Below are positions 8,213-45,492 of a DNA stretch of 64,000 bases, in pieces (positions within the stretch are counted from its first letter, which is position 1; the number at the start of each line of letters is the position of its first letter). The translations under genes were made by a program, and so were the position numbers. The stretch comes from Sipunculus nudus (Eukaryota; Annelida; Sipuncula; Golfingiida; Sipunculidae). The DNA is taken from the NCBI GenBank assembly GCA_026874595.1, contig CM049309.1:48406079-48470078 (forward strand), read 5' to 3'. Under the pieces are notes generated by a model. That model was not told the origin of the DNA. It ran no database searches and was given only the letters and a program-made list of their open reading frames with translations.

Positions 8213-10508
8213 ATGATGTATATTCTTGTCTGTTTTGCCTCCACATTCATAGCAGGTGCGAACGAAGTTGAAGCAGTTTTTTTTTAAAAAGTTCAAAGAA
8301 AAATATTTTACAATCAGTTCAAGCTTTTAAATGTACTAGCTTACCCGTCTATCGCAATGTAATGAGTACCTTCTTATTAACACTAACACATTATGGAAGA
8401 TAAACAAGTAAGAATGTAAAGAAAGGTTATTGATAGAGACTTTCTTCAGACTCCGTTATACAAGGTTTTTTCTTCTTTTGTGTATCTACTCCTGATTCAT
8501 TACTTTAATTTGGTAATTAGAGAAACTTATGTTTTGTATTCTGACTGTAGTTTCAGCATTGATAAAAATTACAAACATCGCCCTTTTTAAGCCAGCTTAT
8601 CAGTCCAGTACGGCTGGATATGGTGGTAGATATGTGAACCACGCAGGGCTGGCCGTTGATGGAATGGTGACACATCCGGGAATACCTCTCAATGGATGTG
8701 CTTCAACATTCGACGACCGTAGGCCGGAGGAGTGGTGGACAGTTGACCTCCGGGAAATCCATGTTATTTTCAATATTTCACTCTATGTAATGGAAACAAG
8801 TGAGTTTACGAATTTCATTTTTCTTATTTCCGTCAAATAATCTGTCCCTAAAACTAGATGAAAGAGAAAAAAAACTATTTAGCACATGACATCACTATGG
8901 TCGGTTCTCCTCAGAGAGACCCATCAATGTGGAGATACTGGCTACAATTTTGATATCAAGCAATAACCCCTCATTAACTCTGGCATTTTTTTAGAAGGAA
9001 TTAATAACCCTGCATTGCAAAATCTATTGGGAAATAAACTCAATTTAATATATGAAAAAAAAAACACTCATTCCTGTCATGATGTGGTTAATGACACTTA
9101 ACATTGTATGTTGCAAAACATGATATTATGATTATGAACACCTTTTCAGCTTAATAAAGCCTTGTCACTTCATGAAGAGCAGGGAAGTATAATATTCAGA
9201 AGTTTGAAGATTCCACTCTCTATCACTCTTAATGTTCAGACTCTTCTTTTATTAGCTCACTTGTGAGCTTTAGCTATGGTGCGGCATCCGTATGTCACCT
9301 GGGGTATGTCGTCTGTCTGTTAACACTAGCAACTTTCCTGATTAAAGCTTGGGCAGATACTCTTGAATCTTTTGTTTGTAAGTGTAAACTGGACAAAGTA
9401 GGTCGCACACCATTTGGTATGTTTACAAGTTTGTTGATTAAGTTGCGTGTCTGTGTGCAATGTGCCTATAAGGAATTGCACGCTTTTGAACATTGTGGGC
9501 TATTATGCAGTCATAGAGAAACTATTAAAAAAATGAAAATACGTGCATCATCCTGTCAAGTTCGTGTATAGTCCTGATCTATATCCCTGTCCTCATGCAA
9601 AATTTAAGAAAATTGCCCCAGTTTTTTAGAAGCATGTCAGATACATTGGTACTTTGGCCCTTGTTCATGTCCTTTTCCATTAACCTCAGACACAACGGAT
9701 GACTTTTCTCAGCAAAGGCTGCATGAAATACCACTTTATCTCGCACATATATTGAACACAGTAAAACATTTTCACTTGGTTAATTTTTTTTACCTCTTTG
9801 TGAGGGTTTTTCTTGAGTTCTCAGCACTTAACAGACATGTGAATGAATTCATTTTTTACTAGCATCTTTGATAATTTAATTTAAGTAAAATAATGTGCAC
9901 CCTCCTAAAATGTAACTTCATATAATGCAAAATTTGAAGACAATTGGATGAACCATGGAGTTCTTCCGAATCATTTCGGAGTACTCTTAAAATGGTTAGT
10001 AAGAAGGTTCGGCGCTTTATTGTACGTGTAGCCAATAATACACACAATTAATACTGTCAATTCATGTCAGGTATTCGGACAATTATGTCAACACAGTATT
10101 AACAAATAATAGAAGTTTTTCGTAGCTTAAGGTGATGTCGCCCATACCAGCCTTGACACATAACCCCCGTAATCTGCTATGTGTTGCTTTGTTCTATACT
10201 TCTTATAAATACCAGATTATGGCGACTAATAACACTCTGTGAAAAAAGAAGTATTTTATTGTTTCCATTTCCCAGCTTTTCCAGTTCGTACATTTATATA
10301 CATTGGGGACAACTTCACTGATCTAAACTGGCGAAGGTGTCTTCCGGAAGGCATCAACGACCGTGACCAGATTAGAGTTTATAACTTTACATGTGCTCCA
10401 CAAACAACTGGGCAATGGCTTCGAGTGGACGCATGGCATATTGTGCATCGTGGTAGCTTACAACTCTGCGAGACCAAGGTGTTTGGGTATAGCTATGAAG
10501 GTACACAC

Positions 10509-10599
<91 letters not shown>

Positions 10600-13500
10600 G
10601 ACCAGTGAACCTCAACCAAGGTAAGAATAAGCTCTTTGTTATTAAGGAGAATCAAGTGAATAAATTTAGTGGACATGGTTACAATGCATTGAAGTAAATA
10701 TCCGAACTAGGTAAATCTATTTAGAATGGTTTTCACAAACAAAGTCTAAAGTTAAGTGTGAGTCTGATTGTTAATAATACATACAGAAAAGAGAGTTCTT
10801 TAACCCTTTTTATGGAAACAGTTTAAATACAGTGAAAATCAATCACTTGAAACTGCATAATATCAAATTGGAAAACATAATCTAGCTGTAAATTGTATGT
10901 CAAAAAACTGTGCTGTTTTCAAATCGTGAGCTCTTTGACTACATTAATACGCAAAATAAATACATTAACAGGTAGGTGATTTTATTTTATTTTGTAAACT
11001 ATTGCTGACTTATTTCTCTCATTATCAGCACAAAGTATGAATTATTAGATAAAAAAACAGTTGGTCACGAGTATGTTATACAGATTATACAGATCCGCTG
11101 CTTTCCATCATTTAAATACTAAAACAACGTCTGTCGTATCATTAAGGAAGTATATCCCACTATAATATGTTATCTTTCCTCTGGGTTATTCATTCGATAG
11201 CTCTTCCCCTGCTGTTCAAATTGCAGTGGAACTCTCTCGGCAGATAACATTCTTGCCTTTGCACTATATTCGGAAGATCTTAGTGGCGTATTCCTCCGTC
11301 TTAAAAAATACGCCCTACGGGAATCATTAAGCATTAAGTTTGTTTCGTACATTCTTCGCCTCGTGCCGTATATCGGATGTCGATACGGACAGACCCCTGA
11401 TATCGCGTGTCTGATGTAGGAAGAGTAGACCACTTCTGAATAAAATTCACATTTTGTGTCTTCAGGACTGAAGGAACACTATGTAAACCCTATGAATTTG
11501 GTAGTGGGAGAGACGTCGGTGAGTTTCCAGTTCCGTTTGTTCATGAACAATTCTGAATCTGACCTGCTTATGAATGGAAATAATGTGACCGAGTACACGG
11601 TGGAAATGCGAAAACGAAGCTCTTCTAGATGGGTCGTCAAAAATACGATACAACAACGTGAGGCAGTTATAGTAGAAAACGTCACTCTGGATGGATTAAA
11701 GCCAAACACTTCTTACACTGTGAGAATTGTTCCATGGTACATGAAAAACAAGGAAATGTTACGGAAGACTATGGGGAATGAGATAATATTCCGGACCTCG
11801 TGTACAAGTAAATATAATTGTTATAACTAATTTTTATCATGTTCTAGAAATTTCAATTGCGCTTGTAGAACATTTTTGCCCAAGCATATTGAGAGGTTAC
11901 GCGGGTATAATATTTCTTCGCTTTTGGGTAAAGGAAAATAAAACCATAATGTCGCCCAGGAGTTACACGAAAAGTTTAAATAGGTTTGAGTAAATAAAAA
12001 AAAAAAACATTTTCTTTTAAACATTTCTGTTTTTAAATAAATATGAAAGCACATGGCTATTGAGAAAGTATCCGTGTTTTGAACAACCTTCTTATGAATA
12101 ATTTTATGTTAATAAGAACAAGAAATTTATCGATTGCCCTGTGCTGAATACGCATTTTTGCGACGGTATTTGACGTGTTTGTACTGTGTAAACGGCTTCA
12201 GTTATAATATTTTAGTTAATACCCACCAAACTGAGGCATAATTTCATTCTTGTATAATTTATACGTTTTCCAAATTAGACTCTCCAGAGTTTTCTGGAAA
12301 AAAAAGTTTATTTGAATATATCACTTCACTGAGTAAACCGTTATCGTTTTAAAATATTTGCTAACTGCCTTGTACTACATTCGCGCATAATTTAAACACT
12401 TAAAATCAGAAATCTACTTAATTTAGGTCACTTAACTGAGCCAAATGCAGGAATTGGCCCTGGAGGTATTGCTGCGGCTATCCTTGGAACACTTTTGATC
12501 TTGCTCTCCATCGTTGGGATTGTTATGCTTTACTTTTATTTCAGGTAACTGGCACACCAAGCTGTATTATATGTTGTGGCATTTGCTTTAATAATTATAA
12601 GATTTATTAGGTCGCTGCATGTAATGTGTACTAGCTATTAACTACCTAATAAGTTGAATAATGCCGTCAAATGCGATCAGTTTTTACCTTTCTACCTAAT
12701 TACGGTATAACTGCAGCCTAAACGAGAGACAATGGTTACCGTTGATCTAACCAGCAACAAAACCAATATACAATTTGGATATATCCAGATTTGAACTGGC
12801 CCGAAACAGATCTTAATTGAACAGTCGAGCTCCCAAATGACTTTAACCTGCCCTGGTTATTACCTTTCCATAATCATATTTACCTTCAAGTAGTAAGCAG
12901 GAATTAAATTCTAATTACTATCGTTTTCTTTAACAAGGGGAATTCTCCAAATTGAACACAGAGATGCTTCTTTCAATGAACACAAAGGTAATGCTTTATT
13001 TTTCCAACAAAATAATTTATTTTACTGATATTCATCAATGCATTGAAATACCATTGAGATGAAAAATGCCCAAAGCAATCCATTTTACTACAATAATTTT
13101 GATAGATGGAAAGCAAATTTGATATATCTAATCTGAGATATTTAAATTCAAACATGTCTGCCATACCAGATGAAACAAGAATTTGTAGAGAGTATGTCTT
13201 AGGGACCTGAAAAGTCGAGTAATAAAACATTCGGCCTGCTCAGTTGGGTTCGATCCCATATTATATTGTTTAAACAATATAACAAGGTAACATAGTTGGT
13301 CATTGGAGACCTATGACAATTTTGATGATCTTTCGGATAAATCGGAGAGGTTGTATTGGGCAAAAATGGAATCAATCTTCGCTCAAGCTAATCCTGCTGC
13401 AAAACTTGTATTTGGTCACAGAGTGAGGTTTTTAATTTTGCAGTCAGATCCGTTGAGGTGAAATAGATCAGTTCTTGTTATTCTGTCGGCAGGTTGGAAA

Positions 13501-13947
13501 AAAAATTAGTTTCCTCCCTAGTATCTGATGATTCTCCGAGCAACTTCCTCGTTTTATCATGCTATGTAATCATATGTGACGAAGGGGCGTTTAAACAAGT
13601 GTTGTTGATAATTGTTGTCTGTTTTAGTGATGTATAGTTAATATGTTTCATGGTAACATTTGTATGCTTCTAAGTGAAATATGTTCCGTTTCCCATCCGA
13701 TGTTACAGACCAAACAAATGAAGTGTATGTTAACTCTAACGCCATCCCGGATCTGTCTTCAATCGCCACAGGAGACGCAACCTGCGCAACCATGGCAACA
13801 AGCGATGAAAACTACGAAGATTTAACGCTGACTCAAATTCCTCCTGCAGAGCAACCAGCTAAAGGCGCTAATTATGAACCATTACATAAGAACCAACCTG
13901 GCAGTAATAATCTGTCGGCATTCGAGGAGAATGCTACAAACATTTAA
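8213..13947 (+). CDS. Receptor gene A: FTP (F5/8-like) + fibronectin III + TM + tyrosine tail
   Basis: Seven exons are supported by GT-AG sites, matching phases and paralogues: 8213-8255, 8551-8799, 10276-10500, 11466-11807, 12427-12544, 12938-12987 and 13709-13947. They give 421 residues. Residues 1-17 are a signal peptide (MMYILVCFASTF then AVSA). Residues 22-172 form an F5/8-type C / fucolectin-like domain: NIALFKPAYQSS start, AVDG at 49-52, WWTVDL at 76-81, GQWLRV at 143-148, LQLCETKVFGYS at its end, cysteines 64, 119, 137 and 162. Residues about 178-286 are one fibronectin III domain (TEYTVEM, LKPNTSYTVRIVPW) with several N-X-S/T sites. Residues 299-325 are the membrane helix, followed by an Arg. 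The tail has Tyr349 (YVNS, a Grb2-type YxN), Tyr378 (SDENYEDL) and Tyr398 (NYEPL). A surface recognition receptor signalling through phosphotyrosine is inferred. An in-frame ATG at 8529 before exon 2 offers another start. A possible polyadenylation signal AATAAA lies at 14441. Confidence 0.82.
9250..9570. repeat. Interspersed repeat fragment in intron 2 of gene A
   Basis: It begins with a short inverted motif (AGCTCACTTGTGAGCT) and runs into CATCCGTATGTCACC-type text, resembling the AGCTCAC..GTGAGC repeats that are common in molluscan genomes. It is absent from the matching introns of B and C. The 102-residue open frame across it (9263-9571) has no recognisable domain and is not called. Confidence 0.35.
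10512..10599. repeat. (TA)n tract just inside intron 3 of gene A
   Basis: An interrupted (TA)n run begins 12 bases after the exon 3 donor (GTACACACAC). Gene B has (CA)n then (TA)n at the same place, and gene C has (TA)45. Confidence 0.95.
13195..13265 (+). repeat. tRNA-derived SINE remnant, intron 6 of gene A
   Basis: Contains a GGGTTCGATCCC box B (13246-13257) with a degraded box A-like stretch (AAAGTCGAGTAATAA) before it. It is orthologous to better-preserved copies in intron 6 of B (34791) and C (44525), so the insertion predates the gene duplications. Confidence 0.5.
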
Positions 13948-14724
13948 TGTAAATGCGGATCCCATATCTGTCTGTAATGTTCCAGGTGTTGCTCATGTGG
14001 GTGTCCATGACAGAATATCTAAGGAAAAATACACAGGATTACATGGAATTCGGTGGCATCTCAGCAACAGTTTAAAATGCTTGGGCTTATCTATCATTTG
14101 CATACAACTGAATAACATGGACCAATATACCTGTTGTATGGATTGAAAGGTTTCCAACTCCACATGTAAAATACATGAACAGTAAATAGGCTGTTATGGT
14201 GGCAAGAGATTCTGTACCAGATGTATCATACAAGAACATTTATGCAGGTTATATGGGTTGCAAGGGATTATATACAATATGTATAGTACATGAACAATGG
14301 TAGAGTCTATTTTGATTTCAAGAGTTTCCATACCATGTGTGTGACACATCAATTATTATGTCTATATTGGATGAAACCACATTAATTAGGCGATGTCATA
14401 TGAATAACATGGTTGATAGTGACAACTACACAAGATGACTAATAAATGTTTATCAACTAACCAACATAATATTCACTTTATCTTTGTATTCTACTTTCAA
14501 TGTCGTCCCTTGATTGTTGTCGAAAGTGTTATTTCTTTGACTTTTCCTACTATCCTCTGTTTCAAAACAACCCTTTATTGCAAAGTTTGAGGCTGCGGGT
14601 GCAAAGATATTCTCTTCTGGTACAACCCAAACGTTATATATAACCACTTTAAAATGTTCTCAATATGCAGTAATACTTTGCAAACAACCAGGGGATATTT
14701 TTACTTCATTAAGCTAAAAGCTCG

Positions 14725-14726
<2 letters not shown>
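13948..14726. other. 3' flank of gene A
   Basis: A-T-rich DNA without a convincing ORF. It contains repeated pentad-like text (CATGTGT..ACATGAACA) that also occurs 3' of B and C, plus AATAAA at 14441-14446, which could end the gene A transcript. Confidence 0.4.

Positions 14727-14773
<47 letters not shown>
14727..14773. repeat. (TA)n microsatellite
   Basis: About 23 TA units directly abutting the left arm of the palindrome at 14771-14946. Confidence 0.9.
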
Positions 14774-14775
<2 letters not shown>

Positions 14776-14946
14776 GTATCATATACAGTTAGTTTTACTT
14801 CATGTACTACATAACTGTTTCGTGAGTACAGCTAACTAGCCGGCTCACTCTTCAGGAGTACCTGAAGAGTGAGCCGGCTAGTTAGCTGTACTCGCGAAAC
14901 AGTTCTGTAGTACATGAAGTAAAACTAACTGTATATGATACATTAT
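14771..14946. repeat. Near-perfect long palindrome, 86-bp arms with 4-bp loop
   Basis: The left arm 14771-14856 is the reverse complement of 14861-14946, with two mismatches seen by eye (ACATAACTG against ACAGAACTG, and CGTGAG against CGCGAG). The spacer is AGTA. Single-stranded DNA or RNA from here would fold into one long hairpin. It lies between (TA)n tracts at 14727-14773 and 15014-15075. It may be a foldback element or a recent inverted duplication at a fragile AT site. It encodes no protein. Confidence 0.9.
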
Positions 14947-15012
14947 TAATGCTCCCCTGCATGGTCGAGCACTTTCACTATGATGTATTGAATTTCTGTG
15001 TGTATTACTTTG

Positions 15013-15013
<1 letters not shown>

Positions 15014-15070
<57 letters not shown>

Positions 15071-15075
15071 TATAT
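15014..15075. repeat. (TA)n microsatellite
   Basis: About 26 TA units followed by AAATATATATT, downstream of the palindrome. Confidence 0.9.
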
Positions 15076-15279
15076 TCATAAGAGATGACGTTTGAGATAA
15101 GTTCGGTCTTAATTTTGAGGTTAGTATCCTTTTTTGAGGTTGTCGGTGTGAACCGCACCATGTGGAGCCGCATGAAGGGACAGATGTGCTATATTTATTT
15201 TGGGTGGGCTCCGTAGAACCTATTCTGTATATCTTGTACACCTGTTATATATTTGTATTCACAAAAGGCAAAGGCCATT

Positions 15280-16110
15280 GTGCCATTCTGATTGTCACGC
15301 TCTGCCGAAGAATTCAAACACCCACTGTGTTAAAACATTATTGGTTCTAAGAACCATGTCAGTAAATCACGACTCATGAAATAATTTGTAGTATTATACG
15401 AGAAAGGATTTCCTAATATCCAGGCTGGTACTGGCCTGTCCCGTTCGTGATGCGTGAATAATGAACTATTTATTGAATCCCACTTCGTCGGACAGGCGGA
15501 TATAATGATCAGGTCTGTCAGTCTATCTGTCTTCCCATGCGTAAAATTCTAATAAGACCCGATATCTAGAAAAAATATTCATTTATGTATTTCTAAAAAG
15601 ATGGGATTTAAAGGTTATGGGTCTATCGAACTGTAGGTTTTTTTTTAGCCCAATTTGCTGAATTTTGGATTTTATGAATGACTAATTCTTAAAAATGTGA
15701 CATGCTATGTAATATATGAAAAGGCGTTAGCCATATTCACGTCTGATTATGATGGCTGGCGTATATTATTGGTCTCTTTGTCTGATCAAGGTGTTTTGTA
15801 GTACTTGAAGATCTGCCCAGTGATGCGTGTATGATATAATATTTTATTGATAGCTGACGCTGAAATTTATTCCGTAAAGCTACCGTTTCAGTGAGGTTTC
15901 TTCGTATACTTCAGGCCCAAGGGCTGCAGATTCACATGGAGCAACTTTTATGAATAAAAGTACATATTTAGGATTCTACATTACACATGTTTTTTGCGGG
16001 GCATTTAGAAATATCAGCTCTTCCAGGGTTTATATAATATATAAACAAACTGCGTCGTTAAGAATAATACAAAGTGAATAATTTATAATACAAATTTACA
16101 ACATTGTTTA
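15280..16110. repeat. Duplicated downstream block, copy 1
   Basis: Aligns by eye with 46845-47790: the CACGCTCTGC opening, a GATGGGAT.TAAAGGTTAT motif, TGATGGCTGGCGTATATTAT, and GTGATGCGTGTA are all shared. No coding frame is conserved. It marks the segmental duplication downstream of receptor units. A related fragment (CATGATGCGTGATGAATTTA) occurs near 30000. Confidence 0.6.
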
Positions 16111-17347
16111 TGTTACAGGTCCAAATAGAGGAGCCTAGGAGAGAGTCACTCCTAAAAAACACAAGAAAGAATAAAAAAAACATGATGTCTTCAGCGAGCG
16201 AGAACCGAAACATCAGCTGAATTCTTCAAGTACAAATACACGTCACATAAGCATCCCTCAATTATCGTTTCCAAGCATAATCAATGCCGTGCAACCATGA
16301 GTATGACAATACTGGCCTTTGAACTCGAAGTTATACTCAAAGTCTATCATTGCAATATTCATAGTCTTATCTCAATGCATGATGTTGATACATTTCAAAC
16401 ACAAGTCTGTCATATAAAAAATATTAGAGAACTGAGTTTGCCATATATCATCATAAGCTAGTCTAGGTTTACATGCAACAATTTCCAACTAATGATTATC
16501 ATCATCTATGTAAACAACTACTGGTCTGGATTCGAACCTAACAATCTCAGGTACTGGTGTTCAATATGTGTTCTCATTAAACAAAGCTCATTAAATAATG
16601 CTATATGTCAACTCCATTCAAAATATAGGACAGGTAAGTGGCTCTTTCACAATAAATCCCATTTATAAATATAATCAATATTTTTCTTATAACTTTATAA
16701 CACGGCACTGTTTCTTACTTAAGTTTTAATCTTTTACTGTTGAAGGCACATGTTTTAGGAGAGGAGTGGATGGAGGACTTCTTTATCTAAGTAACTAACT
16801 CTTCCATGTAAATATTACATTAATTACATTTCCAATTTAGCATCTAAAATAAAGATAATCAGGATGACCCATATTCGGCCATATATGCTGTGATTCAATA
16901 TACACAAAATCCTGCTCACAACTGTGTCATATAAAATGTGTTTTTCACAGAATTTTTCTTTTTTATTTTGTATTTGCAGACACTCTATTTTCAGAAAACA
17001 TTTGAGTTAAAAAAATGTAAACTTGAGTATAAGGAGTGACCAGGGTAAGACTTTTTTTAAAAGTGCAGAAGCAGAAAATAAAACAGAGACCTATATGATC
17101 GTCACGTTCGTAGCCGTCATATCAACCTTGGAGTGTTAACCGTTAACTACTTGCTAGAGAGGAAGCCAGGGTGGATGCCGATACAATAAAGCCACACATT
17201 CACTTTTTATGTGAACACTGAAACATTGTCGGACAAAACCCTGTCCTTACAATCAGTCCTAAGACTGATGCAGACAAATGCACGTATCACAAGTTACACG
17301 ACCAATTGATTTTTTTATAAATAAATATTCTACTTTAGATTATCTGT

Positions 17348-17352
<5 letters not shown>

Positions 17353-17411
<59 letters not shown>
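17353..17411. repeat. (TA)n then (GA)n microsatellite
   Basis: About 29 TA units followed by GGAGAGAGAGAGGGAGA up to about 17427. Confidence 0.95.
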
Positions 17412-17413
<2 letters not shown>

Positions 17414-30934: not shown

Positions 30935-33900
30935 ATGTTTGTTCTTCTATGTTTGGCCTCCAGATTCATAGCAGGTGCGAACGAAGATGACGTATGCTAT
31001 AATTTAAAGAAGAAGAATTTAAAATCTAAAAGAAAAAAATATTTTATAATCTGTTCAAGCTTTTAGATATTCTAACATACCCGTCTATCGCAATTTAATG
31101 AGTGGCTTTTTTTATTAACACTAACACATTATAGAAGAACTAAAAGTGAGAATGTAATGAAAGTTTATCGGTAGAGACTTTTTGAAGACTCTGTTATATA
31201 AGATATTTCGTTCTGTGTTTATCTTACACTGCATTATTACTTTAATTTGGTAATTAGAGAAACTTTTGTTTTGTATTCTGATTGTAGTTTCAGCATTGAT
31301 GAAAGTTACAAACATCGCCCTTTTTAAGCCAGCTTATCAGTCCAGCACGGCTGGGTTGGGCCGTGGATACGTGAACTACGCAGGGCTGGCTGTTGATGGA
31401 ATTGTGACACACCCGGGAAAACCTCTCAATGGATGTGCATCAACAATAGATTGGCCGGAGAATTGGTGGACTGTTGACCTTCAGGAAATCCATGTTATTT
31501 TTTATATTTTACTCTTTGTAAAGAAAACAAGTGAGTTCACAATTTAACTTTTTTTCGTCACATCAGATTTTGCCACTGCAACTAGTTGGAAGAAAAATAA
31601 TTATCAAGCAGCTGGTATAACTATAGTCGATTATCCTCAAAGGCGCATAATGGTTTGTAGGCTATTGTTACAATTTTATTATCAAGTAATTACCCCACAT
31701 TGAATAATTCATGTACCCCGGCAATTGTTCGGTGGCCCGGCAATTAGTGGTGTTTATGTGTACCTCCCATACCATCCCGAACCCAAAATCTGCTTTTGGT
31801 GTTTTTTCTACACTTCTTATAGATATTAGATTATGGGATCAATAACACTCTAGGAAAATATTCATTTACTATTTTTCCCTTTAAATCCAGGATTAACATC
31901 TTTACTAATTGGGGAAAACTTCACTGATGTAAACACGCGAGGATGTCGTCGGGAAGGATACAGTGATCATGACCAGATAAGAGTTTATAACTTTACATGT
32001 GCTTGGCCAACAACAGGGCAATGGGTTCGAGTGATCAGCGATTTTCATTATAATTTACAACTCTGCGAGGCAAAGGTGCTTGGGTATAGTTATGAAGGTA
32101 CACACAAACACACACACACACATATATATATAACGTAAATATGAGCTACTTATATTAATTATAATTGCGTTTTACACGAACAAGGTGGAAGAACAAACTT
32201 ATATTTAAAAGACTCAACACCTAATTATTAATTTGATCGTTATTTATACAAACAGAAAAGAAATATTCTTTATGGAACAATTTTAAACAGTGAAAACAAT
32301 CATTTAAACCTATATGATACCATATTTGGAAACATTTAAATATAAAAAAAGGCTTACTCAAAACTGTTCATTTTTCAAATCGTTAGTCTTAGTGTGTCAG
32401 CCTTAATATTGCTGACTTATTACTCCAATTATCAGCACCAAGAATTCTTAATAAGATAAAGAAACACAGATACACACGGGTGTCTGTTACAGCATATACA
32501 AATCCGTTGCTTTTCATGATTTTCATACTGAAACTACGTCGGTCGATCCAGTAAAGAGATAACTCGTACCATAATTTTATCTCTTCCGCTGAGGTTTTCG
32601 CAGATGTATCTACGGTTTCAATTCCAACTGCAGCGAGACTTCCTCCGTAGATACATTCTTGCAATTGCTATGTCACCGACAGATTTTTCTGGCGTATTTC
32701 TCCATCTTATAAAATACAGGCTTACTAATTACTCGTTGTAAGCATTTCACACGCTTTTCTGGGGCCATTATTGTTTTATCGTTCCCTCTAATCCTTGAGT
32801 TTGATATCGATACTGAGAGACCCGGATATCACAAGTATGTTGTAGGAAGGCTGGGCAGCTATTGGACAAAATTATCAAAATATGATGTATTTGCCACCTT
32901 TTATATTTGTAGGACTGAAGGAGCACTATCTAACCCCTGTAAATATTGAAGTGAGGCAGACGTCAGTGCGCTTCCAGTTCCGCACTTTCTTGAACAATCC
33001 TGAATCTGACCTGCTTTTGAATGGTAACAATGTCACAAAGTACACGGTGGAAATGCAAGAACGAGGCTCGTCTAGATGGGTCGTCAAAAATACAATACAG
33101 CAAAGTGAAGCGAGTACAGAAGAAAACGTCTCTCTGGTTGGATTACAGCCAAACACTTCTTACACCGTGAAAATTGTTGCATGGTACATGAAAAACCAGG
33201 AAATGTTACGGAAGAATATGGGGAATGGGACAAAATTCCGGACCTTGCATGCAAGTGAGTACTGTTGTAAGAACTACTCGGCGACATGTTCAATTAAGTT
33301 TACATTGAACTTTAAGAATATTAATGCCCAAAACATTATAAGATGTTATTATGGTTGATGGCTCAATTTTTAGTGTGCTAGTTTGAGAGTAATACACAGC
33401 CAAAAGGTCATCCAGGCATTCGATAAAAAATATTGATTTGGTTTATAAATATCAATATATTAGGTGAATATGTAAATAATATATGTATTTTTGTGAATAT
33501 ATCAGTTGTTTAAATGGATTAAGTATAAGAGTTTTGATGAGGGAATGTGATTATTTGAAAGGTTCCTTGTTTTGAAGAAACTTTTCATGAATGCAGTCAC
33601 CCTAATGTTTAAATGTTGCAGCCGTCTTTATTGGTTTCTTTTCTGTGGTAATGTGAGCATGATGTTTTAAATTACTCTGTGCTGAATCCTCTTAAGTGTC
33701 ACGATACTGAGGTTGGCAAACGTCTTCAGTTTATAATCAAATTCAAGTTGGTAGCCATTATGGTAGGAAATAAGCGGCAACAACTTCATTCTTGCATATT
33801 TTTATATTTCACAATGTTACTCAGTTATCAACACTTTTCCCGGAAAAAGAGTTTCATAGAAATATCATGTCACTGAGATAACCAATTGTGTAATAAAACA

Positions 33901-35465
33901 TTTTCTATCTGAATCGTACAGCTCTGCTACGTAAGTGGAAAATTTATAATTATACATATACCGATTTCAGATCACTTTATTGAGAAAGATGCAGGCCTTG
34001 GTCCTGGAGGTATTGCTGCGGCTATCCTTGGATCATTTTTGCTCTTGATCGTCATGGTTGGGGCAGTTTTGTTCATCTTGTATTTCAGGTAACTGGCATC
34101 ACAATCATTCCATTCATTTTTTTGACAATTGCTTTTAAAGGGCTAACTTTCATCATGTAATGTGTCATGTAATGCACGTAATGTGTACTAACATTTCATT
34201 ATTGAATATGTAGAATAATGAAATATAACTAATCTGACAATTTTGAATTTCTAAATATATTTTATTTCAACTTAAATGCGGTTTGTCTGCAGCTATAACA
34301 CGATTTCAAATGCAGTGATCAGATCATTAACTTAACCAAGTTAACCTTTGGATATATCCAGATTTAAAGTTAACTATTACTAGTGGACCTCCGAATAACT
34401 TATCCCTGCCTGTTTCTCTAAATATTTTGACTGTACAATTTTATATGTAGTAATTAGCAGAAACAGCTAGGGGTGTATATATTTATAGAATCATTGGATT
34501 ATTTCTTAAATTCAAATAAAAATCCGTTTCTTTAAACCAGGGGAATATTCCAGAATGAATCCAGAGATGTTTCTTTTGCCAAACGCAAAGGTAATTTTTT
34601 TCTGCAAAATTTGTTTTGCTGACAATGACCAGTACACTGCAACATCATTTAGATGGAAATTGTGCAAAAAACTTAAGTACAATTCTCTTGATTGATCGAA
34701 AGAACTTTTGATATTGCTCATCTGATATATTTAGAATCAAACATGTCGGGTCGAGCTAGATGAAACAAGATCATGCAGAAAGTATGTCTTAGAGGCCTGG
34801 TCAATCCAGTGGTAAAACACGAAACTGGTTCGATCCCCTGCGTGGCTATGAGAGAAGGTTATACTGGCCCGTCAAAAGACGGTGGTTTTCACCCGGTCCT
34901 CAGGTTATCTCTGCCCCTTCACACTACCGAACTCCTTCATCCGAGCCATGGGGAGGGTCTCGTTTTATACATTATAACGAATTGTACGTGAATGTTTTCA
35001 GGGAAGTGCAGAAACAGATAAATACAAAAGACGTGTAGGCGGCGGAATCACCAAGATTAGCCAAAAGAAAAAGTATTTAAAGAGTTATATTTCATTAAAA
35101 TGATTAAATGCATTTGGTTAAATAGTATGACAAGGTAAAAACGTTGCTTATTGGCCGACCAGTGACAAATCTGATGATCTTTCGCGTAAATCGTACAACT
35201 TGTATTCGGATGAATTGCGACAGCGACCACGTTTCAACTCTCCGCTCCAGCTTATCCAGTTGCTTAACCGGTATCTGTATAAAGGTTAAAGTCTTTAATC
35301 ATGTCCCGAGACTCGCCGACGTGAAGGAGCCAAGTTCTTAATATTCTTTCAGTGTTTGGGAAATTTCTTCACAGCAAGTTTCTCGCCGTGCCATGCTATG
35401 TAATCATATATGATTTTAATTGGTGCTATTGATGATTTCATGCGCCTCAGTTAGGGTTATGTAGT

Positions 35466-35513
<48 letters not shown>

Positions 35514-35796
35514 TGATATTATTTATATGCTATGTCCTGTTTCCCCATCAGGCGTTCCAGAACAAACAAATGATGATTATGTAAACGTAAACGCCACCAC
35601 GGATCTGCCTCCAGTCGCTACAGGAGAAGCCGACTGCTCAACCATGATAATAAGCGAAGAAAACTACGAAGATATAACTGTGACACTGCCGAACCAACTG
35701 CCTCCTGTCGCGCATCCAGGAAACATCGCTAATCACGAACCTCTAAAAAAGAACCAACCTAATACGCCAACTTTCGAGGATAATACTTCAGTCTAG
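30935..35796 (+). CDS. Receptor gene B: FTP (F5/8-like) + fibronectin III + TM + tyrosine tail
   Basis: Exons 30935-30974, 31288-31530, 31891-32097, 32913-33254, 33971-34088, 34541-34590 and 35552-35796 encode 414 residues with the same phases as gene A. Signal peptide residues 1-16 (MFVLLCLASRF then IAVSA). The FTP domain lies at about 21-165 with NIALFKPAYQSS, AVDG, WWTVDL and LQLCEAKVLGYS. It is shorter than in A by two residues in exon 2 and six in exon 3. Fibronectin III is at about 171-280 (TKYTVEM, LQPNTSYTVKIVAW). The membrane helix is at about 290-317 (GPGGIAAAILGSF). Tail: Tyr343 (YVNV) and Tyr372 (SEENYEDI) are present, but the third position is His395 (NHEPL, codon CAC 35734-35736) where A and C have tyrosine. 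It is the most diverged ectodomain of the three and fully open, so probably functional. Confidence 0.82.
32101..32130. repeat. (CA)n-(TA)n tract just inside intron 3 of gene B
   Basis: Follows the exon 3 donor directly (GTACACACAAACACACAC then TATATATATA), at the same position as the (TA)n tracts of A and C. Confidence 0.8.
34791..35030 (+). repeat. tRNA-derived SINE, intron 6 of gene B
   Basis: Opens with GGCCTGGTCAATCCAGTGG (box A-like) and has GGTTCGATCCCC (box B, 34827-34838). The tRNA-unrelated body (CTGGCCCGTCAAAAG, CACCCGGTCCTCAGGT, GAGCCATGGGGAGGGTCTC) is shared with the copy at 44525 in gene C. Confidence 0.6.
35467..35511. repeat. (TA)n microsatellite upstream of gene B exon 7
   Basis: About 22 TA units ending 40 bases before the last-exon acceptor. 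Gene C lacks it at the same place. Confidence 0.9.
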
Positions 35797-36510
35797 TATC
35801 CTTTACAGCGGATCCTTTATCTTTCTGAAATATTTCAGATGTTGCTTAAATAATATTTTTATGATGGAATATCACAGGTATAATACACATGGACACATAG
35901 GATCCCTTGGCGGGAAAGCAAAATTAAAAAAATACATGGCATGGGTTTCTGTACCATATGTACACAACTATATCACATTAACAATAGAGCTTGTATGGTT
36001 GTAAGGTTTTCTATCAGACATATATATTACAGGAACAATAATGTATAGACTATAATGGTTGCAATATTTTATATACCATGTATCATACAAGAACATTTTC
36101 ATAAATTATATGGGTTGCAAATGATTCAATAAAATATATACAGAACAGGAACAATGGTACAGGCTTTCTTGGTTGCAAAGGTTCCATACCATATGTATAA
36201 AACAAGAATAAATGTAATGGTTAAATGGGTTAATACCACATAAAACACCAGACTTATAACTGAAGACTTCTTTCCGATGAACTGTATCCATCAAGCATGG
36301 ACAGAGTGGACATAACTGACGCTTTCCATGACTGTGCTTCGTGTGACAAAACAGATTGGGCACAATAAAACAAAAGGAGGAGGCCATGTGAGGCATCAAA
36401 TCGACCTTGTTGGAAAATCCGCCGACAGAACCACGGAAACACTTATGATCCGATCCATCGACCACGTCTCAGATTAGAATTTTATGAACTTGTTAGGAAT
36501 TTGTCAGGGT

Positions 36511-36542
<32 letters not shown>

Positions 36543-38319
36543 GAAGGTAGAGTAACCCTCCGGCGTAAAGTACTCTATGGCCTTCAAACAAGGCCAGAGC
36601 GATATAACACTGTGTTATATATAATATATGTAATGAATTACATAGTGGCAGGGAAGAATTAATGTATTATGTATCACAGACAGTATTTATATCATACACT
36701 TATAATAATACAGAAAGCCACGGGCTCCGGACCTGGGTTTAATGTTGATGCTGTACCTAAATCACTTTTGATCTTATTTTCACTCTTGGGGGCTGTAGGT
36801 CGCGTTCTATTTTATAACAGCTTACGGATGTTGCCTTCATTAAAAAACTGTTAAATATATTTAAGCACTAGTTTTATTTGTTTGTCTACAAGCACATGTT
36901 AGCACATGCTAATAAAGCTTAAAAAGACACGTTTGACTTGTAAATGTGATCACACTACTCATGATTATATATCTGTTTTGTTAGAAGAAACTTTAACGTT
37001 GTAGTGTATGAGCTAAACATATACAGAATGTTAGATCATCAGGACCGTTAATCCCACTGGATGTACAAATAGGACCACAAAATGCCCTGTGGCAACTAAT
37101 ACAATCCACAATTTCACAGGATCGGGCACATTACAAGTAAAATAGTTTCCTTTCAATTTTCACAGCACACATATGATGAAGGAAACAATCATAGGACTTT
37201 AAAATATTATGACGTCTTTAGGCATTTTTTTAAATAAAGCCGGCCATACACGAGGCGACATGTCCTGCAAATCTAGATAAAATTAACATGCATCAAGCAG
37301 AACTTCCAGGAATCAATCATTATTTGGTTTGGTATTATTTTATTTATCAATATAAGTGCGTATGACGAAAATTTATTCTGCCTAGGACATGTACTGTCTT
37401 GTTTCTCTTTATTAATATAGATCTATAAGTAAAATAGGTATTTTGGGATAGCTACACAACTTCTTCTGAGTTTCCTGTTGTTCGCGCAAAACACATAGCC
37501 CCCTCATCAGACACGGTGAAACCACGGACGGTCACATCATCACAGGATAACATGATCAATCGTTATATATTAGTCGCCTTTTGCCTAATATCGCACGACA
37601 AGTCGCAGGAAAAAGAATCATTTTCCTTCTTCTGCGACATGTCACGCAACTCATGAAAACGTGCGACTAATCCCCATACGTGTGTTCTGCGACTTGTCGC
37701 GCGACATGTCGTCTCGTGTATGGCCAGCTTTAAGCATTTCCTGTGCACGTGCATGTAACATGTGGTAGGTATGCATCTTTTCAGTTCAAGAGGGTACGTT
37801 TAGTTGGATTGTTTGGTTTGAATTTTTATTGTTGCGACAAGCAGTTCCAGCAATTCTCACAATTACTGAAATGAAGAGGTATATTTTTTGGTTTTTTTTG
37901 CTATGCTACACACCTTATAGTTGTATTAACTCGCATTAGTACTGGTGTTATACCACTTGGTGTATTGGTGATATATTTATCGCAAATTCCCAAGTTTTAT
38001 TCGATTAAAATTATATGTCAACCTAGATGAAATTTACACAGATGAAGGTGTTATCCTTTCTGCGAGCAGCCTCGCTAGATTATCTATTAATTACCGAGGT
38101 CAATATGTAGAGCATAAAAACATTGTCTAGATTGACATTGGATAAATCAGAAAGCATTAACAATCCTAATTCCAGTTATATGCTCATTTTTATAAACTGC
38201 ATTTTTTAAACAACAACATGCGACATCCTTTATGAGGAAATGTTTAGGTATTTTTCAACAATATTTCATGATGTTTTTTATGTTGTACTGAAGCTCTTGA
38301 CAGATCCGTACCATTCACC
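35797..38319. other. 3' flank of gene B and intergenic DNA
   Basis: The part 35797-36500 aligns with 45493-46260 downstream of gene C (ACAGCGGATCCTTTATCTTTCTGAAAT.., CATGGCATGGGTTTCTGTACCATATGTAC, and AGGCATCAAATCGACCTTG). AATAAA at 36128 may serve as a polyadenylation signal. (CA)n is at 36510-36535. An inverted-repeat pair with GCGACATGTC/GACTTGTCGC-like words (37560-37735 against 37240-37270: GCCGGCCATACACGAGGCGACATGTC and GACATGTCGTCTCGTGTATGGCCAGC) hints at a short non-autonomous transposon spanning roughly 37240-37730. No gene is supported. Confidence 0.45.
37242..37730. mobile_element. Possible non-autonomous element with inverted ends
   Basis: GGCCATACACGAGGCGACAT near 37242 is matched in inverse orientation by ATGTCGTCTCGTGTATGGCC near 37711. 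The ends match over about 20 bases with one mismatch. The interior of about 450 bp holds further GCGACAAGTCGC-like words and no credible ORF. A MITE-type element is the simplest reading. Confidence 0.5.
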
Positions 38320-38480
38320 GCCCTGAAGAAGCCAACTCTCCATATTTAACAGCTATATACCGCCTGCAAGTGTATGTCTGGTATGGAAATATCTTCCGGG
38401 TAGTCTGCAGACTCCCTATAACCAGTCTTCAGCGGTAAACCTGACACCTACAGTCTTTGCGATATAAATATGTATTACCG
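38320..38480 (+). promoter_or_regulatory. Upstream block shared by all three receptor genes, copy C
   Basis: Third copy of the shared block (CTCTCCATATTTAACAG, TCTGGTATGGAAATATCTTC, GTAGTCTGCAGACTCCCTA), about 1.8 kb before the gene C start codon. Confidence 0.35.
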
Positions 38481-38739
38481 TTTATATATCTACGGCATGG
38501 TCGAGTAATCTTAATGGAATGAATGGACATCAGTTTTGTTTTATGGTAACTTTAATTTGTAAAACCACGGTGGGCGTACAAACAGAGTGTTGTTCTTGTC
38601 AGATATCTTGAGATTGCCAATCTAAAATGTAGGATAATTAAAATAAGGGAATCTGGCATCATTGGTTAATTTTTGTACTGTAGAACAATCCTAGGCCATC
38701 TTAAGAATTAAAATTTTCACATTTTCCCCACATATTAAT

Positions 38740-39240
38740 ACATCTTCATACGCCCATCTAAGACGGGACGTATTATGGTATACCCACGGTCCGTCTATCT
38801 CTCCGTCTAGCCGTCCGTCCATTAACTTTAAGTGTCGCCGCAATAACTTACTAAGGCTATGATGGATGTTCACGAAACTCACCAGAACTACTTACCAATA
38901 AATTTCACCCTAGTTCGATTATGCAAAAATCCACGCATATTTTATTGGACAGAGGGCACTAGGCTACTTCTTGGTGTCGCCGCGATAACTAACCAGAAAT
39001 ATGTTTGAAAAAAAAAACTAAACAGAAATATTTATCAATTTAATATATCGCCTTCACCTTCCAGTAAAATCCATGAATATTGAATGAGGTCAGAAGTCAC
39101 CAAACTTTGATGGCGCTGTTACTTACCAAAACTCTGATGGATATTCATGAATTATTATAAATGTTAACTAGAACAGTTTTTCATCTGTTACATTCTCAGC
39201 AGAATTCACGAATATTTAATAAGGTCAGAGGTCACAAGAT
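38740..39240. repeat. Interspersed repeat of the CGTCCGTCCATTAAC..GTCGCCGCAATAACTTA type
   Basis: Contains a CCGTCTA/CCGTCCGTCC run followed by repeated phrases (GTCGCCGC.ATAACT, GATGGATGTTCACGAA, AATCCACGCATATT, GGTCAGAGGTCAC). A related fragment lies at 58950-59270 next to the CR1-like LINE. This looks like a dispersed multi-copy repeat. No terminal structure was resolved. Confidence 0.45.
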
Positions 39241-40147
39241 ATGCGACCAGCGAATTATGCAATATTTGCATTGCTCTTGTGTATGATGGGGATACCTAAG
39301 GGTAGCCATCGAGAAAAAAAGAAATGCAATATTGGGAAACCCTGGATTGGATATCGATAATGAAACGCTAATGAAGAGGTATAACATTATTTCATGAGGC
39401 AATGTAAGCGCTATGTGTTTAGACTGCCCTGCAATATACGGGTAGACTCGCATTCTTCAAATTTGAAAAAGATGATAACTATCTATTATCTTCTGTTTAA
39501 CCATATGTATTTCCATGTCATCCATTATCGTATCAGCCCTCTTCCATAAAGCAATATATGTATGTATATGGCCATACTGTTTCATGTGTTATTTATTTAT
39601 AAGCTAGAAAGGAGATTCACAGAAACGTTCGTTCCTCATTATTAGGTATGTTTTCCTATCGTTTGAACCACACCTTTTCTGTCTGCATCATTCTCAACAT
39701 ATAAATATAATACAAGATTATATATACAGATAAAGAGTGACACCTACATACAGATAAAGAGTGACGCCTATTTATTGTCACACAAAGTGTTACTCTTTCT
39801 CTTTGCCTACACTTCGACTACAGACAAAGAGGAGCAAAACTCAAAATTTACAATACTTTGTTTAAATATTTAAACTTCCTGTTCATATGGTCATGTTCCG
39901 AAAGCTTTTATATTTCCAGATTGGACGACAAGTGGCAGCGACATATCATTATATAGTCCTTTTCACAAGTCTTTTACAAATGAAAGTGAAGCTTATCCTC
40001 TCACACATTCTAAAGTGGATGAGAGACTAGAGACTTAATACCAGACGAAAAACTTAATAGAAGTAACCACCGTTTTTGTTTTACAACTTCTTGGTCTTCG
40101 ACAATCTGTGTGATTATATCTTGAATTACGTATTACATTGAAACTGC
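39241..40147. other. Upstream region of gene C
   Basis: No gene. A short tandem phrase (CAGATAAAGAGTGACACCTA, then GAGTGACGCCTATTTATTG) near 39730-39775 recurs near 46655-46690. The stretch 39985-40110 is related to 24545-24650. Only the last 60 bases before the start codon match the A and B upstream DNA. Confidence 0.4.
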
Positions 40148-41797
40148 ATGATGTATGTTCTTCTCTGTTTAGCCTTCAGATTCATAGCAGGTAATAACGA
40201 AGATGACGTATGCTAAAATATAACGAAACAGAATTTAAAAATCTAAAAGAAAAAGGTTAAAAAATCTGTTAAAGCCTTTTGAATTTACTTACATCTATCG
40301 CAATGTACTGAGTGCCTTCTTATTAACATTAACACATTATAGAAGAATTATGAACACTATGTAATATATTTTGTTCTTTTGTACATCTACAACTGATCCA
40401 TTAATTTGATTTGGTAATTAGAGAAACGTATGTTTTGTATTCTGACTGTAGTTTCAGCATTGACGAAAATTACAAACATCGCCCTTTTCAAACCAGCTTA
40501 CCAGTCTAGCACGGCTGGATATGGTCTTAAATATGTAAACCACGCTGGGCTGGCCGTGGATGGAATCGTGACACACCCGGGAAAACCTCTCAATGGATGT
40601 GCTTCAACATTCGATGAACATAGGGAGGAGGAGTGGTGGACCGTTGACTTCCGGGAAATCCATGTTATTTTTTATATTTCACTCTATGTGATGAAAACAA
40701 GTGAGATTACAAATTTCATAATTCTGAATTCCGTCACATATTTTAACACTTCAAGTAGATGGGCGAGAAATAAATATAAAGCACATGACATCAATATAGT
40801 CGGTTCTCCTCAGAGAGACCCATCAATTCGGAGATATTTGGAACTATTTTATCATCAAACAATAACCACTCATTAAATCATTCAAGTACCCTTCCAACTA
40901 TTTAGGAAGAATAAATCACCCTGTTCTGCAAAATCTATTAGGGAAATAAAATCAACTAAATATCAGTGAAAGCTGTATGAATTCTAAATTTATTGTGCAC
41001 ATATATATTGAACACGGTAAAAACTTTTCATTTGGTAAAATTGGTCGGTCTATATTTATTATATTTTTTACATTTTATGAGGGCTTTAATAAGTTCTCAG
41101 CATTTTAGAAATTACAGACATGTTGGTGAATTCAAGCATTTTATTTGGCATCTTTCATTAGATTTAATAGTGTGTACCCTCCTAAGATGTATTCGTAACA
41201 TAATGCAAAATTTCAGGACAATTAGATGAACCATGGAGTTCTTCCGAATCATTGCGGAGAACTCTTGAAAGGAATAGTTCGAAGGTTTGGCGCCTTATTG
41301 TACATTTAGCCAATAATAAAAACAATACTGTCAATTTATGTCAGGCATTCGGGCAATTTTATTGACACAGTATTAATAAATAAGATCCTAGTTTATCGAA
41401 GTCTCAGATGATGTCTATGTATACATCCAGCAGGTCGTACCAGCCCTAACACATAAGCCCAGTAATCTGCTTTTTGTTGCTTTGTCCTATGCTTCTTATA
41501 AATAACAGATTAAGGCGACCAATAACACATCAAAAAGATGCATTTTATTGTTTCCCTTTCCCAGCATTTCCAGTTCATACATCTGTACACATTGGGGACA
41601 ACTTCACTGATCTAAACTGGCGAACATGTCTTCCGGAAGGCAACGATGACCGTGGCCAGATTGGAGTTTACAACTTTACATGAGCTCGGCAAACAACTGG
41701 GCAATGGCTTCTAGTGAACCAAATGCATTTTTTTCGTGGTAGTTTACAACTCTGCGAGACCAAGGTGTTTGGATATAGTTATGAAGGTACCGCACAA

Positions 41798-41801
<4 letters not shown>

Positions 41802-41846
<45 letters not shown>
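41802..41846. repeat. (TA)n tract just inside intron 3 of gene C
   Basis: About 22 TA units beginning 15 bases after the exon 3 donor. Confidence 0.95.
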
Positions 41847-41850
<4 letters not shown>

Positions 41851-44524
41851 AGTCAACCTCAAGAATAACCCCTTTGTCATAAAGGAAAATCAAGTGAATT
41901 AATTTAGTGGACGGGGTTACAATGTATTGACGTAAACATCCGAGTTAGGTAATTCTATTTAGATAAGCAAGGTCTAAAGTTAAGTGTCAGTCTGATCGTT
42001 ATTATCACATACAGAAAAGAAATTTTTAAACCCTTTTTTATGGAAACAATTTACACACAGTGAAAAACAATCTCTTGAACCTTCATAATATAAAAATGGA
42101 AATCATAATCAAGTTGTAAATAATATGTAGAAAAACCCCATGACTACACTAACACGCAAAATGGGTACATAAACAGGTAGGTGATTTTATTTTGTTTTGT
42201 AAACTATGGCTGACTGATGTCTCCCATTATCAGCACGAGTATGAATAATTAAATAAGAAACACAGTTGGACACGACTATTTGTAAAACAGAATATACAGA
42301 TCCGCTGCTTTTTATCATTTAGATACTTACACTACGTCGATCGTATCATTAAGGAAGTATATCCCACTATATTATGTTATCTCTTCCGCTGAGTCATTCA
42401 TTCGACAGTTCTTCCGCTACTGTTCCAATTGCAGCGGGACTCTCTCCGCAGATAACATTCTGTCTTTGCACTGTATTCGGTTGATCGAAGTGGCGTATTT
42501 CTCCGTCTAAAAAATCGGCCTACATGAATCATTCATCACAAGTAATACAAAAGTCTTTCCGGGGCCGCCATAGTTTGTTTCTGATATTGCAAGTCTGATG
42601 TAGGAGGAGTAGACCATTACTGAGTTAAATTCATATTTTTTCTTCAGGACTGAAGGAACACTATGTTAACCCTATGAATTTAGTAGTGGGAGAGACGTCG
42701 GTGAGTTTCCAGTTTCGTTTGCTCATGAACAATTCTGAATCTTACCTGCTTATGAATGGTAACAATGTGACAGAGTACACGGTGGAAATGCAAGAACGAA
42801 GCTCGTCTAGATGGTTCGTCAAAAATACGATACAACAACGTGAGGCGGGTTCAGTAGAAAACGTCCCACTGGATGGATTACAGCCAAACACTTCTTACAC
42901 TGTGAGAATTGTTCCATGGTACATGAGAAACAAGGAAATGTTACGGAAGAATATGAGGAATGGGACAAAATTCCGGACCTTGCGTACAAGTTAGTACTTT
43001 TGTAAGAACTACTCGTCGACATGATCAATAAAGTTTAAATTGAACTTTTAGAATATTCATGCCCCAAAAATAATAAGATGTTACGGTTACACAATTTTTC
43101 TTGTGCTAGTTTGAGAGTAAAACAAAGTCAAAAGTTCATATAGGCATTCAACAAATAATAATATCAATATATTTGGTCAATATAAAAATAATATACATAT
43201 CTTTTGTAAATATCTCAGTTGTTTAAATAAATTATAACAGTTTTGATGAAGGGACGTGGTTATTGGAAAGGTTCCTTGCTTTGAAGAAACTTTTCATAAA
43301 TGCAATCACCCTAATGTTTAATAGTTTGCAGCCATCTTCATTTTTTCAATGTGAACATGATGTTGATAGATTACTCTGTGCCGAATACCCATTAACGTCA
43401 CGGTATTGAAGATTGTAAATGCCTTCAGTTTATAATAATATTCAAGTTGACATCCATCATGGTAGGACACAAGCGGCAAAAACTTCATTCTTACATACTT
43501 TTTATATTTCCTATGTTACTCTCATAAGTTTGAGTTATTTACACTTTTCCCGGAAAAAAAGTTTAATAGAAATATTCATGTCACTGAGATAACCAATTGT
43601 GTTATTAAACATTTACTATCTGGTTCGTACTGCTTTCGCTGCTTAATTTGAACATTAACAATAAATCTACCTATTATAGATCACATTACGGAGACAAATG
43701 CAGGCCTTGGTCCTGGGGGTATTGCTGCGGCTATCCTTGGATCACTTTTGCTCTTAATCGTCATCGTTGGGGCCGTTTTGTTCTTCTTGTATTTCAGGTA
43801 ACTGGCAGCAAAATCATGACATTCATTTTTTTAACAATCGCTTTAAAAGGCTAACATTCGTCATGTAATATGTCATGTAATGCACGTAATGTGTATTAAC
43901 TTTAACATTATTAAATATATTGAATAATGAAATATGACCAATCTGACAATTTTGAATTTCTATATATGTTTTTATTTCAAACCGAAATACGGTGTGTCTA
44001 CAGGCAAAACGCGATTTCAAATGCAGTGATCAGACCATTACAAAAACCAAATTACCCTTTGGATAAATCCAGATTTGAAAGTAACTTTTACTAGTGGACC
44101 TCAGAAAATAACCCTGCCCTTGTTCTCACACATCCATAATCACATTTGCCTTCTAAATCTCTACAGATTTTGTCTGTACAGTTTTATATGCAGGAGTGAG
44201 AAGAAGAGCAGGGTTTTATATATTTATAGAATATCTAGAGTATTTCTTAAATTCTAATTACACTCTGTTTCTTTTACCAGGGGAATATTCCAGAATGAAC
44301 ACAGAGATGTTTCTTTTGCCAAACGCAAAGGTATTTTTTTTCTGCAAACTTCTGTTCGGCTGACAATAACCAGTTCAGTGCAATATCATTGAGATGAAAA
44401 TTGTGCTATTAAACCCGTACAATTCTTTTGGTAGATGGAAAGTAGTGTTTCTTATATGATATATTAAGAAATAAACATGTCTGGTCGAGCTAGATGAAAC
44501 ATGATCATGCAGATAGTATGTCTT

Positions 44525-44740
44525 AGGGGCCTGGTCAGTCGAGTGGTAAACACGACACGGGTTCGAACCCCGGCGTGGCTATGAGAGTAGGTTGTACTGG
44601 CCCGTCAAAAGTCGGTTGTTTCACCCGGTCCTCAGGTTTCCTCCACCCCTACACACACCACCGAACACCTTTATCCGAGCCATGGGGAGGGTCTCATTTT
44701 AGAAATTAATACGAGTTGTACGTGAATGTTTTCAGGGAAG
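44525..44740 (+). repeat. tRNA-derived SINE, intron 6 of gene C
   Basis: The best-preserved copy: GGCCTGGTCAGTCGAGTGG as box A region, GGGTTCGAACCCC as box B (44559-44571), then a body shared with 34791-35030. It is not a functional tRNA, because no cloverleaf closes after box B. Confidence 0.6.
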
Positions 44741-45492
44741 TGCAGAAACAGACAAATACAAAAGACGTGTAGGCGACGGAATCGCCGAGAATAGCAAACA
44801 AGAAAAAGTATTTAAAGAATTATATTTCTTTAAAATGATTACATATGTTTAAATGGTAAAAACGTTGCTGATTGAACGGCCAGTGACAAATCTAATCATC
44901 TTTCGCGTAAAACTTGTATTGGGATGAAAAGCAAAAGCGACCACGTTTTAACTCTCCACTCCAGCCAATCCGGTTGCTAAACCGGTATCTGGATAAAGGG
45001 TGAAGTCTTTAATCTTGTCGTTATACTCGCCGTCGTGAAAGAGCCCAATTCTCATTATTCTGTCAGTGTGTGGAAAATAGTTCAATTTCTTCACAGCAAG
45101 TTTCTCGCCATGCCATGCTATGTAATCATATATGATGAAGATGCCATTAAACAAGTGCTGTTGATGATTTCATGCGCCTTAGATAGGGGTGTATAGTTAT
45201 TATGTCTCATGATAATATTTATATGATATGTTCTGTTTCCCCATCAGGCGTTTCGGAACAAACAAATGATGATTATGTAAACGTTAACGCCACTACGGAC
45301 CTGTCTTCAGTCGCTACAGGAGAAGCCGACTGCTCAACCATGATAATAAGCGAAGAAAACTACGAAGATATGACTGTGACACAGCCGAAGGAACTGCCTC
45401 CTGTAGCGCATCCAGCAAACATCGTTAATTACGAACCACTAAAAAAGAACCAACCTAATACGCCAACTTTCGAGGATAATACTTCAGTCTAG

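Follow-up and report, generated by a model that had tools for sequence, protein, structure and literature searches.

Which kind of receptor is encoded by the tandem genes in this stretch of the Sipunculus nudus genome, and where do its closest relatives lie? The window, meaning the whole 64,000-nucleotide stretch analysed, corresponds to C4:48406079-48470078 of the assembly (G000; 1.43 Gb, 153 contigs). It contains three related genes, A, B and C, and a fourth, D, lies upstream of it. By sequence comparison, we found that the outer part of their predicted products, an FTP (F5/8-like) domain followed by a fibronectin type III (Fn3) domain, has exon-by-exon homology with the outer part of FTP receptor tyrosine phosphatases encoded elsewhere in the same genome. 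This main relation lies outside the window and was hence missed by a preliminary description made from the window sequence alone. On balance, we think it somewhat more likely than not that A–D are type I membrane receptors that have their FTP–Fn3 outer part in common with these receptor phosphatases, that carry a tyrosine tail in place of the enzyme, and whose tail signals by recruiting SH2 proteins.

Three tandem genes share seven exons

Direct repeats place three copies on the + strand at about 8.2, 30.9 and 40.1 kb of the window. Aligning the copies resolved each of them into seven exons, which are bounded by AG acceptors and GT donors and have exon-end phases of 1,1,1,1,2,1; the predicted proteins are of 419 (A), 409 (B) and 420 (C) amino acids. 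The frames of A and B are open. In exon 3 of gene C, an in-frame TGA (41681-41683) occupies the position of a cysteine codon in A and B, and the remaining frame is open; as assembled, gene C is not intact. The exon sets and shared phases that the preliminary description gave for three same-strand paralogues therefore stand, with the qualification that one of the three is interrupted. The TGA may be fixed, allelic or an assembly error. A selenocysteine reading was rejected, as an Rfam scan of the window, at gathering scores, returned nothing and thus gave no support for a selenocysteine insertion sequence element. The start codon is uncertain: A and C have an extra in-frame ATG just 5′ of the exon 2 acceptor (at 8529 in A), giving MFCILTVVSA, and B has TTG there. 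The exons are as follows.

8213..8255, +, gene A exon 1, start and short hydrophobic leader (start codon uncertain)
8557..8799, +, gene A exon 2, first half of the FTP/F5-8-like domain
10276..10500, +, gene A exon 3, second half of the FTP/F5-8-like domain
11466..11807, +, gene A exon 4, Fn3 domain
12427..12544, +, gene A exon 5, membrane helix without charged residues
12938..12987, +, gene A exon 6, juxtamembrane
13709..13947, +, gene A exon 7, tail with YVN, YEDL and YEPL; stop TAA
30935..30974, +, gene B exon 1
31294..31530, +, gene B exon 2 (FTP)
31891..32097, +, gene B exon 3 (FTP)
32913..33254, +, gene B exon 4 (Fn3)
33971..34088, +, gene B exon 5 (membrane helix)
34541..34590, +, gene B exon 6
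35561..35796, +, gene B exon 7, tail with YVN and YEDI (third tyrosine replaced by His)
40148..40190, +, gene C exon 1
40458..40700, +, gene C exon 2 (FTP)
41565..41786, +, gene C exon 3 (FTP), with the in-frame TGA
42648..42989, +, gene C exon 4 (Fn3), mosaic breakpoint near 42951
43680..43797, +, gene C exon 5 (membrane helix), B-like
44281..44330, +, gene C exon 6
45248..45492, +, gene C exon 7, tail with YVN, YEDM and YEPL; acceptor 9 nucleotides upstream of the one modelled for B

The outer part combines an F5/8-like domain with one Fn3 domain

The FTP/F5-8-like domain is split across exons 2 and 3 and is followed by a single Fn3 domain in exon 4. With the Pfam fn3 profile (cut-off 25 bits), A (25.5) and B (27.7) scored above the cut-off, and C (23.2) and paralogue D (18.8) below it. 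Pfam F5_F8_type_C or F5_F8_type_C_2 was listed under cut-off in A, B and C, and the F5/8 profiles scored above cut-off only in D (32.8 against 28.2; 28.8 against 27.8). These Pfam searches and the sequence bear out the order proposed in the preliminary description, an F5/8-like head, one Fn3 domain and one membrane helix, with both F5/8 and fn3 similarity detected. Consistent with a head that is 'lectin-like' in its fold, a family profile search matched the F-type lectin FBP32 (PDB 3cqo; profile positions 35-167, E 0.0011). The sugar site did not follow: the fucose-binding motif of F-type lectins (fucolectins), given as HX24RXDX4[RK] in excerpts of PMC5712786, was present in 0 of the 4 proteins tested. 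At the cation motif h2DGx (x = N, D or S) the proteins have AVDGM or AVDGI, in which x is not hydrophilic.

The same excerpts name transmembrane domains among the partners of F-type lectin domains and describe Drosophila furrowed, in which an F-type domain is joined to CCP domains, so that, like the window genes, it carries this domain in a chimeric protein. They also report that oyster F-type-lectin bindins act in fertilisation (PMC5712786), which raises the alternative that the window genes encode gamete or shell-matrix proteins and not immune or signalling receptors. We consider this very improbable, given the membrane helix, the tyrosine tail and the absence of the sugar-binding motif.

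Some relatives elsewhere in the genome carry phosphatase domains

A genome search with A returned 72 matches, comprising its own cluster, distant FTP and Fn3 exons at C6:22.43-23.17 Mb and C4:63.9-64.1 Mb, and a few singles. Phosphatase exons, detected with PF00102 (best 150 of 496 candidates scored) and with a gene-derived query (best 150 of 343), lie inside the C6 cluster and at many other sites in the genome. In one C6 gene, two FTP exons and an Fn3 exon are followed by additional conserved outer open reading frames (ORFs), an ORF with a membrane helix and then phosphatase exons, so that its FTP exon 2, FTP exon 3 and Fn3 exon stand in the same order as in the window genes. We checked intron phases by eye in 20 fetched Fn3 exons (19 from C6, 1 from C4:64 Mb) and 20 FTP first exons. 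A phase-1 donor at the position used in A–D was present in 19 of the 20 Fn3 exons, in one of them (L052) just past an in-frame TGA, and all 20 FTP first exons had a phase-1 NGT no more than five codons from where the match ends, with GT[AG]AG in 17. Four of the 21 C6 Fn3 exons sit 8.2-9.9 kb 5′ of same-strand phosphatase domain-1 exons (P 0.00015 under random placement). For the other 17, no phosphatase of their own was found at the sensitivity used (best 150 of 343 candidates); a lone, unassigned phosphatase domain-2 match lies at C6:22810725.

Two further FTP receptor phosphatases are long single ORFs and perhaps retrocopies. An intronless ORF of 1154 amino acids on C9 (L030 266-3730, −) encodes FTP-EGF-membrane-phosphatase-phosphatase, with an F5/8 match (E 4e-5) under cut-off; unlike the window genes, it has EGF repeats and no Fn3 domain was called. 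The other, of 1197 amino acids (C10:10511897-10515232), has FTP (E 0.002) and phosphatase matches.

Near the window, by contrast, phosphatase exons were not found. With phosphatase queries, tblastn gave a best E of 0.79 in the window plus 100 kb on each side, and in a further tblastn search with phosphatase exons at E 1e-3 the only other matches were short ORFs outside known exons. PF00102 had no match at C4:48.3-48.57 Mb among those listed (best 150 of 496 candidates). A phosphatase signature pattern was also negative over 264 kb, a weak test because the signature spans an exon junction in the C6 gene. Given the FTP and Fn3 exon homology to receptor phosphatases and the lack of a phosphatase found nearby, the window genes therefore appear to be a phosphatase-less, tyrosine-tailed group with a shared head. 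They resemble the C9 and C10 receptors in the outer FTP domain and the C6 genes also in FTP/Fn3 exon order and phase-1 introns, and differ from all of these in ending in a tail with tyrosine motifs and not in phosphatase domains.

In midpoint-rooted exon trees (omitting short rows: 4 of the 20 fetched for Fn3, with at most 80 residues, and 1 of the 20 for FTP, with at most 60), A–D split from all other rows with support of 100/100 for Fn3 and 100/99 for FTP. The Fn3 split places F, a distant relative upstream of the window, with the C6 exons.

The C4:63.92-64.11 Mb region holds at least nine FTP exons and one Fn3 exon, with no phosphatase among the matches listed. Phosphatase exons are also clustered at C2:51.6-52.3, C13:30-32 and C15:58.4-59.4 Mb, which suggests that tyrosine phosphatases have undergone large expansions in this genome.

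Tail tyrosines lie in YxN and Yxx[LIM] motifs

In A, B and C, one membrane helix precedes the tail. The helix, read from the translated sequences, has no charged residue, and pairing with a charged adaptor is therefore not suggested. In A (3/3), B (2/2), C (3/3) and D (4/4), all tyrosines encoded by the tail exon fall inside a YxN or Yxx[LIM] motif, with shuffle P values of 0.011, 0.050, 0.006 and 0.0016, respectively, confirming the motifs that the preliminary description had assigned to the tails of the first three. Each gene has two to four motifs, drawn from YxN, YED[LIM], YE[PT]L and YETM. Tail-exon matches were confined to the window cluster in two whole-genome searches (E 0.01 and E 1; best candidates scored). 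We rejected the receptor class with immunoreceptor tyrosine-based activation motifs (ITAM, Yxx[LI]-x6-12-Yxx[LI]) or inhibitory motifs (ITIM, [SIVL]xYxx[ILV]), as the former pattern was found in 0 of 4 tails and the latter in 1 of 4, that of the interrupted gene C.

Endocytic sorting signals follow the rule Yxx(hydrophobic), which YEDL, YEDI, YEDM, YEPL, YETL and YETM all fit. The genes could thus encode adhesion or scavenger receptors whose motifs serve sorting and not SH2 signalling. However, YxN and acidic residues after the tyrosine are more usual for SH2 docking, and the tails have both YxN and acidic residues after most of their tyrosines, with two to four motifs within fewer than 100 residues. 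We regard a purely sorting role as improbable.

The cluster contains a maintained paralogue, a mosaic gene and decayed copies

When 100 kb on either side of the window was searched for related exons, they were found on the upstream side only, where the cluster extends for about 60 kb. D (+ strand, about −45.7 to −40.7 kb) is open in exons 2–7, with a GC donor at exon 2 and exon 1 not settled; it is apparently an intact gene and more divergent than A, B and C. E (− strand, −27 to −31 kb) is a broken copy, and F (− strand, −57 to −59.5 kb) consists of FTP, EGF-like and Fn3 pieces. Fn3 relics lie at −10.7 and −2.1 kb. Inside the window there are three decayed exon copies.

36705..36815, +, decayed membrane-exon copy 3′ of B
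46383..46478, +, decayed membrane-exon copy 3′ of C
48190..48408, +, decayed, frameshifted tail-exon copy

The array had been described as recently duplicated, but with pairwise synonymous divergence (dS) of 0.21-0.28 among A, B and C, the copies are not very recent. The ratio of nonsynonymous to synonymous divergence (dN/dS) was 0.72 for A-B, 0.54 for A-C and 0.58 for B-C, whereas D compared with A, B and C gave 0.32, 0.31 and 0.34, at dS 1.23-1.40. The divergent copies are under purifying selection, and the receptor has therefore been maintained over a long divergence; the newer copies A, B and C evolve fast or under relaxed constraint. Between the tails of A and D, 27 of 82 residues are identical and the tyrosine motifs are kept.

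These comparisons bear on whether the genes are merely leftovers of receptor phosphatases that lost their enzyme, with copies drifting and A and B the least damaged. Such decay would fit the stop in C, the broken copy E, the distant partial copy at about −57 to −59 kb, the degraded membrane and tail exons 3′ of B and C, the ratios among A, B and C, and the 17 of 21 C6 Fn3 exons without a detected phosphatase. Yet A, B and, in exons 2–7, D are open with usable splice sites, the ratios involving D are low, and A and D still share the tail tyrosine motifs despite the divergence of their tails. The comparison with D weakens this explanation, which we consider unlikely overall, although it may hold for individual copies.

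Gene C is a mosaic whose head resembles that of A and whose membrane helix and tail resemble those of B. Among the informative sites that lie from A 8491 to 14380, A-C sites predominate to the left of the breakpoint (348, versus 109 for B-C and 106 for A-B) and B-C sites to the right (518, versus 160 for A-C and 115 for A-B). The breakpoint falls where the Fn3 exon ends (A 11769, B 33216, C 42951), and 0 of 2000 permutations reached this signal. Upstream of the start, A and B are alike and C is different.

The broken lectin genes that the preliminary description placed nearby were traced only in part. Among 30 window ORFs tested with Pfam, one is C-type-lectin-like (52327-52575, +; E 0.0065, under cut-off) and is perhaps the lectin that was meant; otherwise, the broken elements are the decayed membrane and tail exons. 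The window also contains a NADAR-domain ORF (6648-7175, −; E 2.8e-9) and a long interspersed nuclear element-like sequence (59557-63695, −) with reverse transcriptase and endonuclease as well as an ORF that is GDSL-like (under cut-off).

Evidence against a phosphatase-related signalling receptor

Several observations weigh against our reading of A–D. Additional outer exons are present in the C6 gene that carries the phosphatase, the Fn3 exons of A–D are only about 28-38% identical to those of C6 and F, and loss of the phosphatase here is not polarised against its gain by the others. In 30 kb around one phosphatase-less C6 copy (C6:22657500-22687499), which contains FTP, Fn3 and further outer exons, we saw no tyrosine tail and no clear membrane, tail or phosphatase exon. 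In the window itself, exon joins are predicted from sequence alone, gene C is interrupted, and structure prediction of the Fn3 domain from a three-row alignment reached a predicted local distance difference test score of only 38. The shuffle P for the B tail is only 0.05 and B has lost one tyrosine to histidine; YEDL and YEPL can also be read as endocytic Yxx(hydrophobic) signals; and the ratios among A, B and C are high enough to be compatible with relaxed constraint.

A possible counterpart to receptor phosphatases

Grb2-like SH2 proteins prefer YxN, and phosphatase-, kinase- and lipid-enzyme-type SH2 proteins prefer Yxx[LIM]. Judging from these motifs, signalling through SH2 proteins would most likely be the mechanism of A–D. 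Ligand contact would cluster the receptor, a cytoplasmic tyrosine kinase would then phosphorylate the tail, and SH2 proteins would be recruited, Grb2-like ones at YxN and phosphatase-, kinase- or lipid-enzyme-type ones at Yxx[LIM]. That the window genes are recognition receptors is a fair guess, and the immune or allorecognition use put forward in the preliminary description is a candidate role. As their outer part is that of the receptor phosphatase family, the short receptors may have signals in common with the phosphatases, may compete for these signals or may oppose them, and similar input could thus lead to different responses in the two groups.

Vertebrate paired immune receptors of the Siglec, FcR-like and SIRP kinds place different signalling ends on one outer fold, occur in tandem arrays and exchange sequence between paralogues. 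It is conceivable, if rather doubtful, that the worm genes form a paired-receptor system of new design, in which one FTP-Fn3 module is mounted either on built-in phosphatases (C6) or on an SH2-docking tyrosine tail (window), with heads and tails swapped as in gene C. The vertebrate receptors have immunoglobulin (Ig)-type heads and ITIM or ITAM tails, unlike the F5/8-Fn3 head and the built-in phosphatase or non-canonical tyrosine tail found here. Furrowed is also membrane-bound, but it has CCP and C-type lectin parts, unlike the window genes, and we know of no Fn3 domain in it. Literature searches returned no title or abstract start describing this architecture among the matches listed (for example, best 20 of 106 and 12 of 64), a weak negative.

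Excerpts of two molluscan studies also concern phosphatases: tyrosine phosphatases are expanded in at least one bivalve, Mercenaria, in which a phosphatase-like family has grown to 13 genes (PMC8905726), and receptor phosphatase transcripts are among those differing between groups of oyster haemocytes (PMC13070813). A phosphatase-less, tyrosine-tailed group with a common head would be a concrete system in which to examine whether such animals use opposing receptor pairs, a topic mostly addressed with vertebrate Ig-type receptors.

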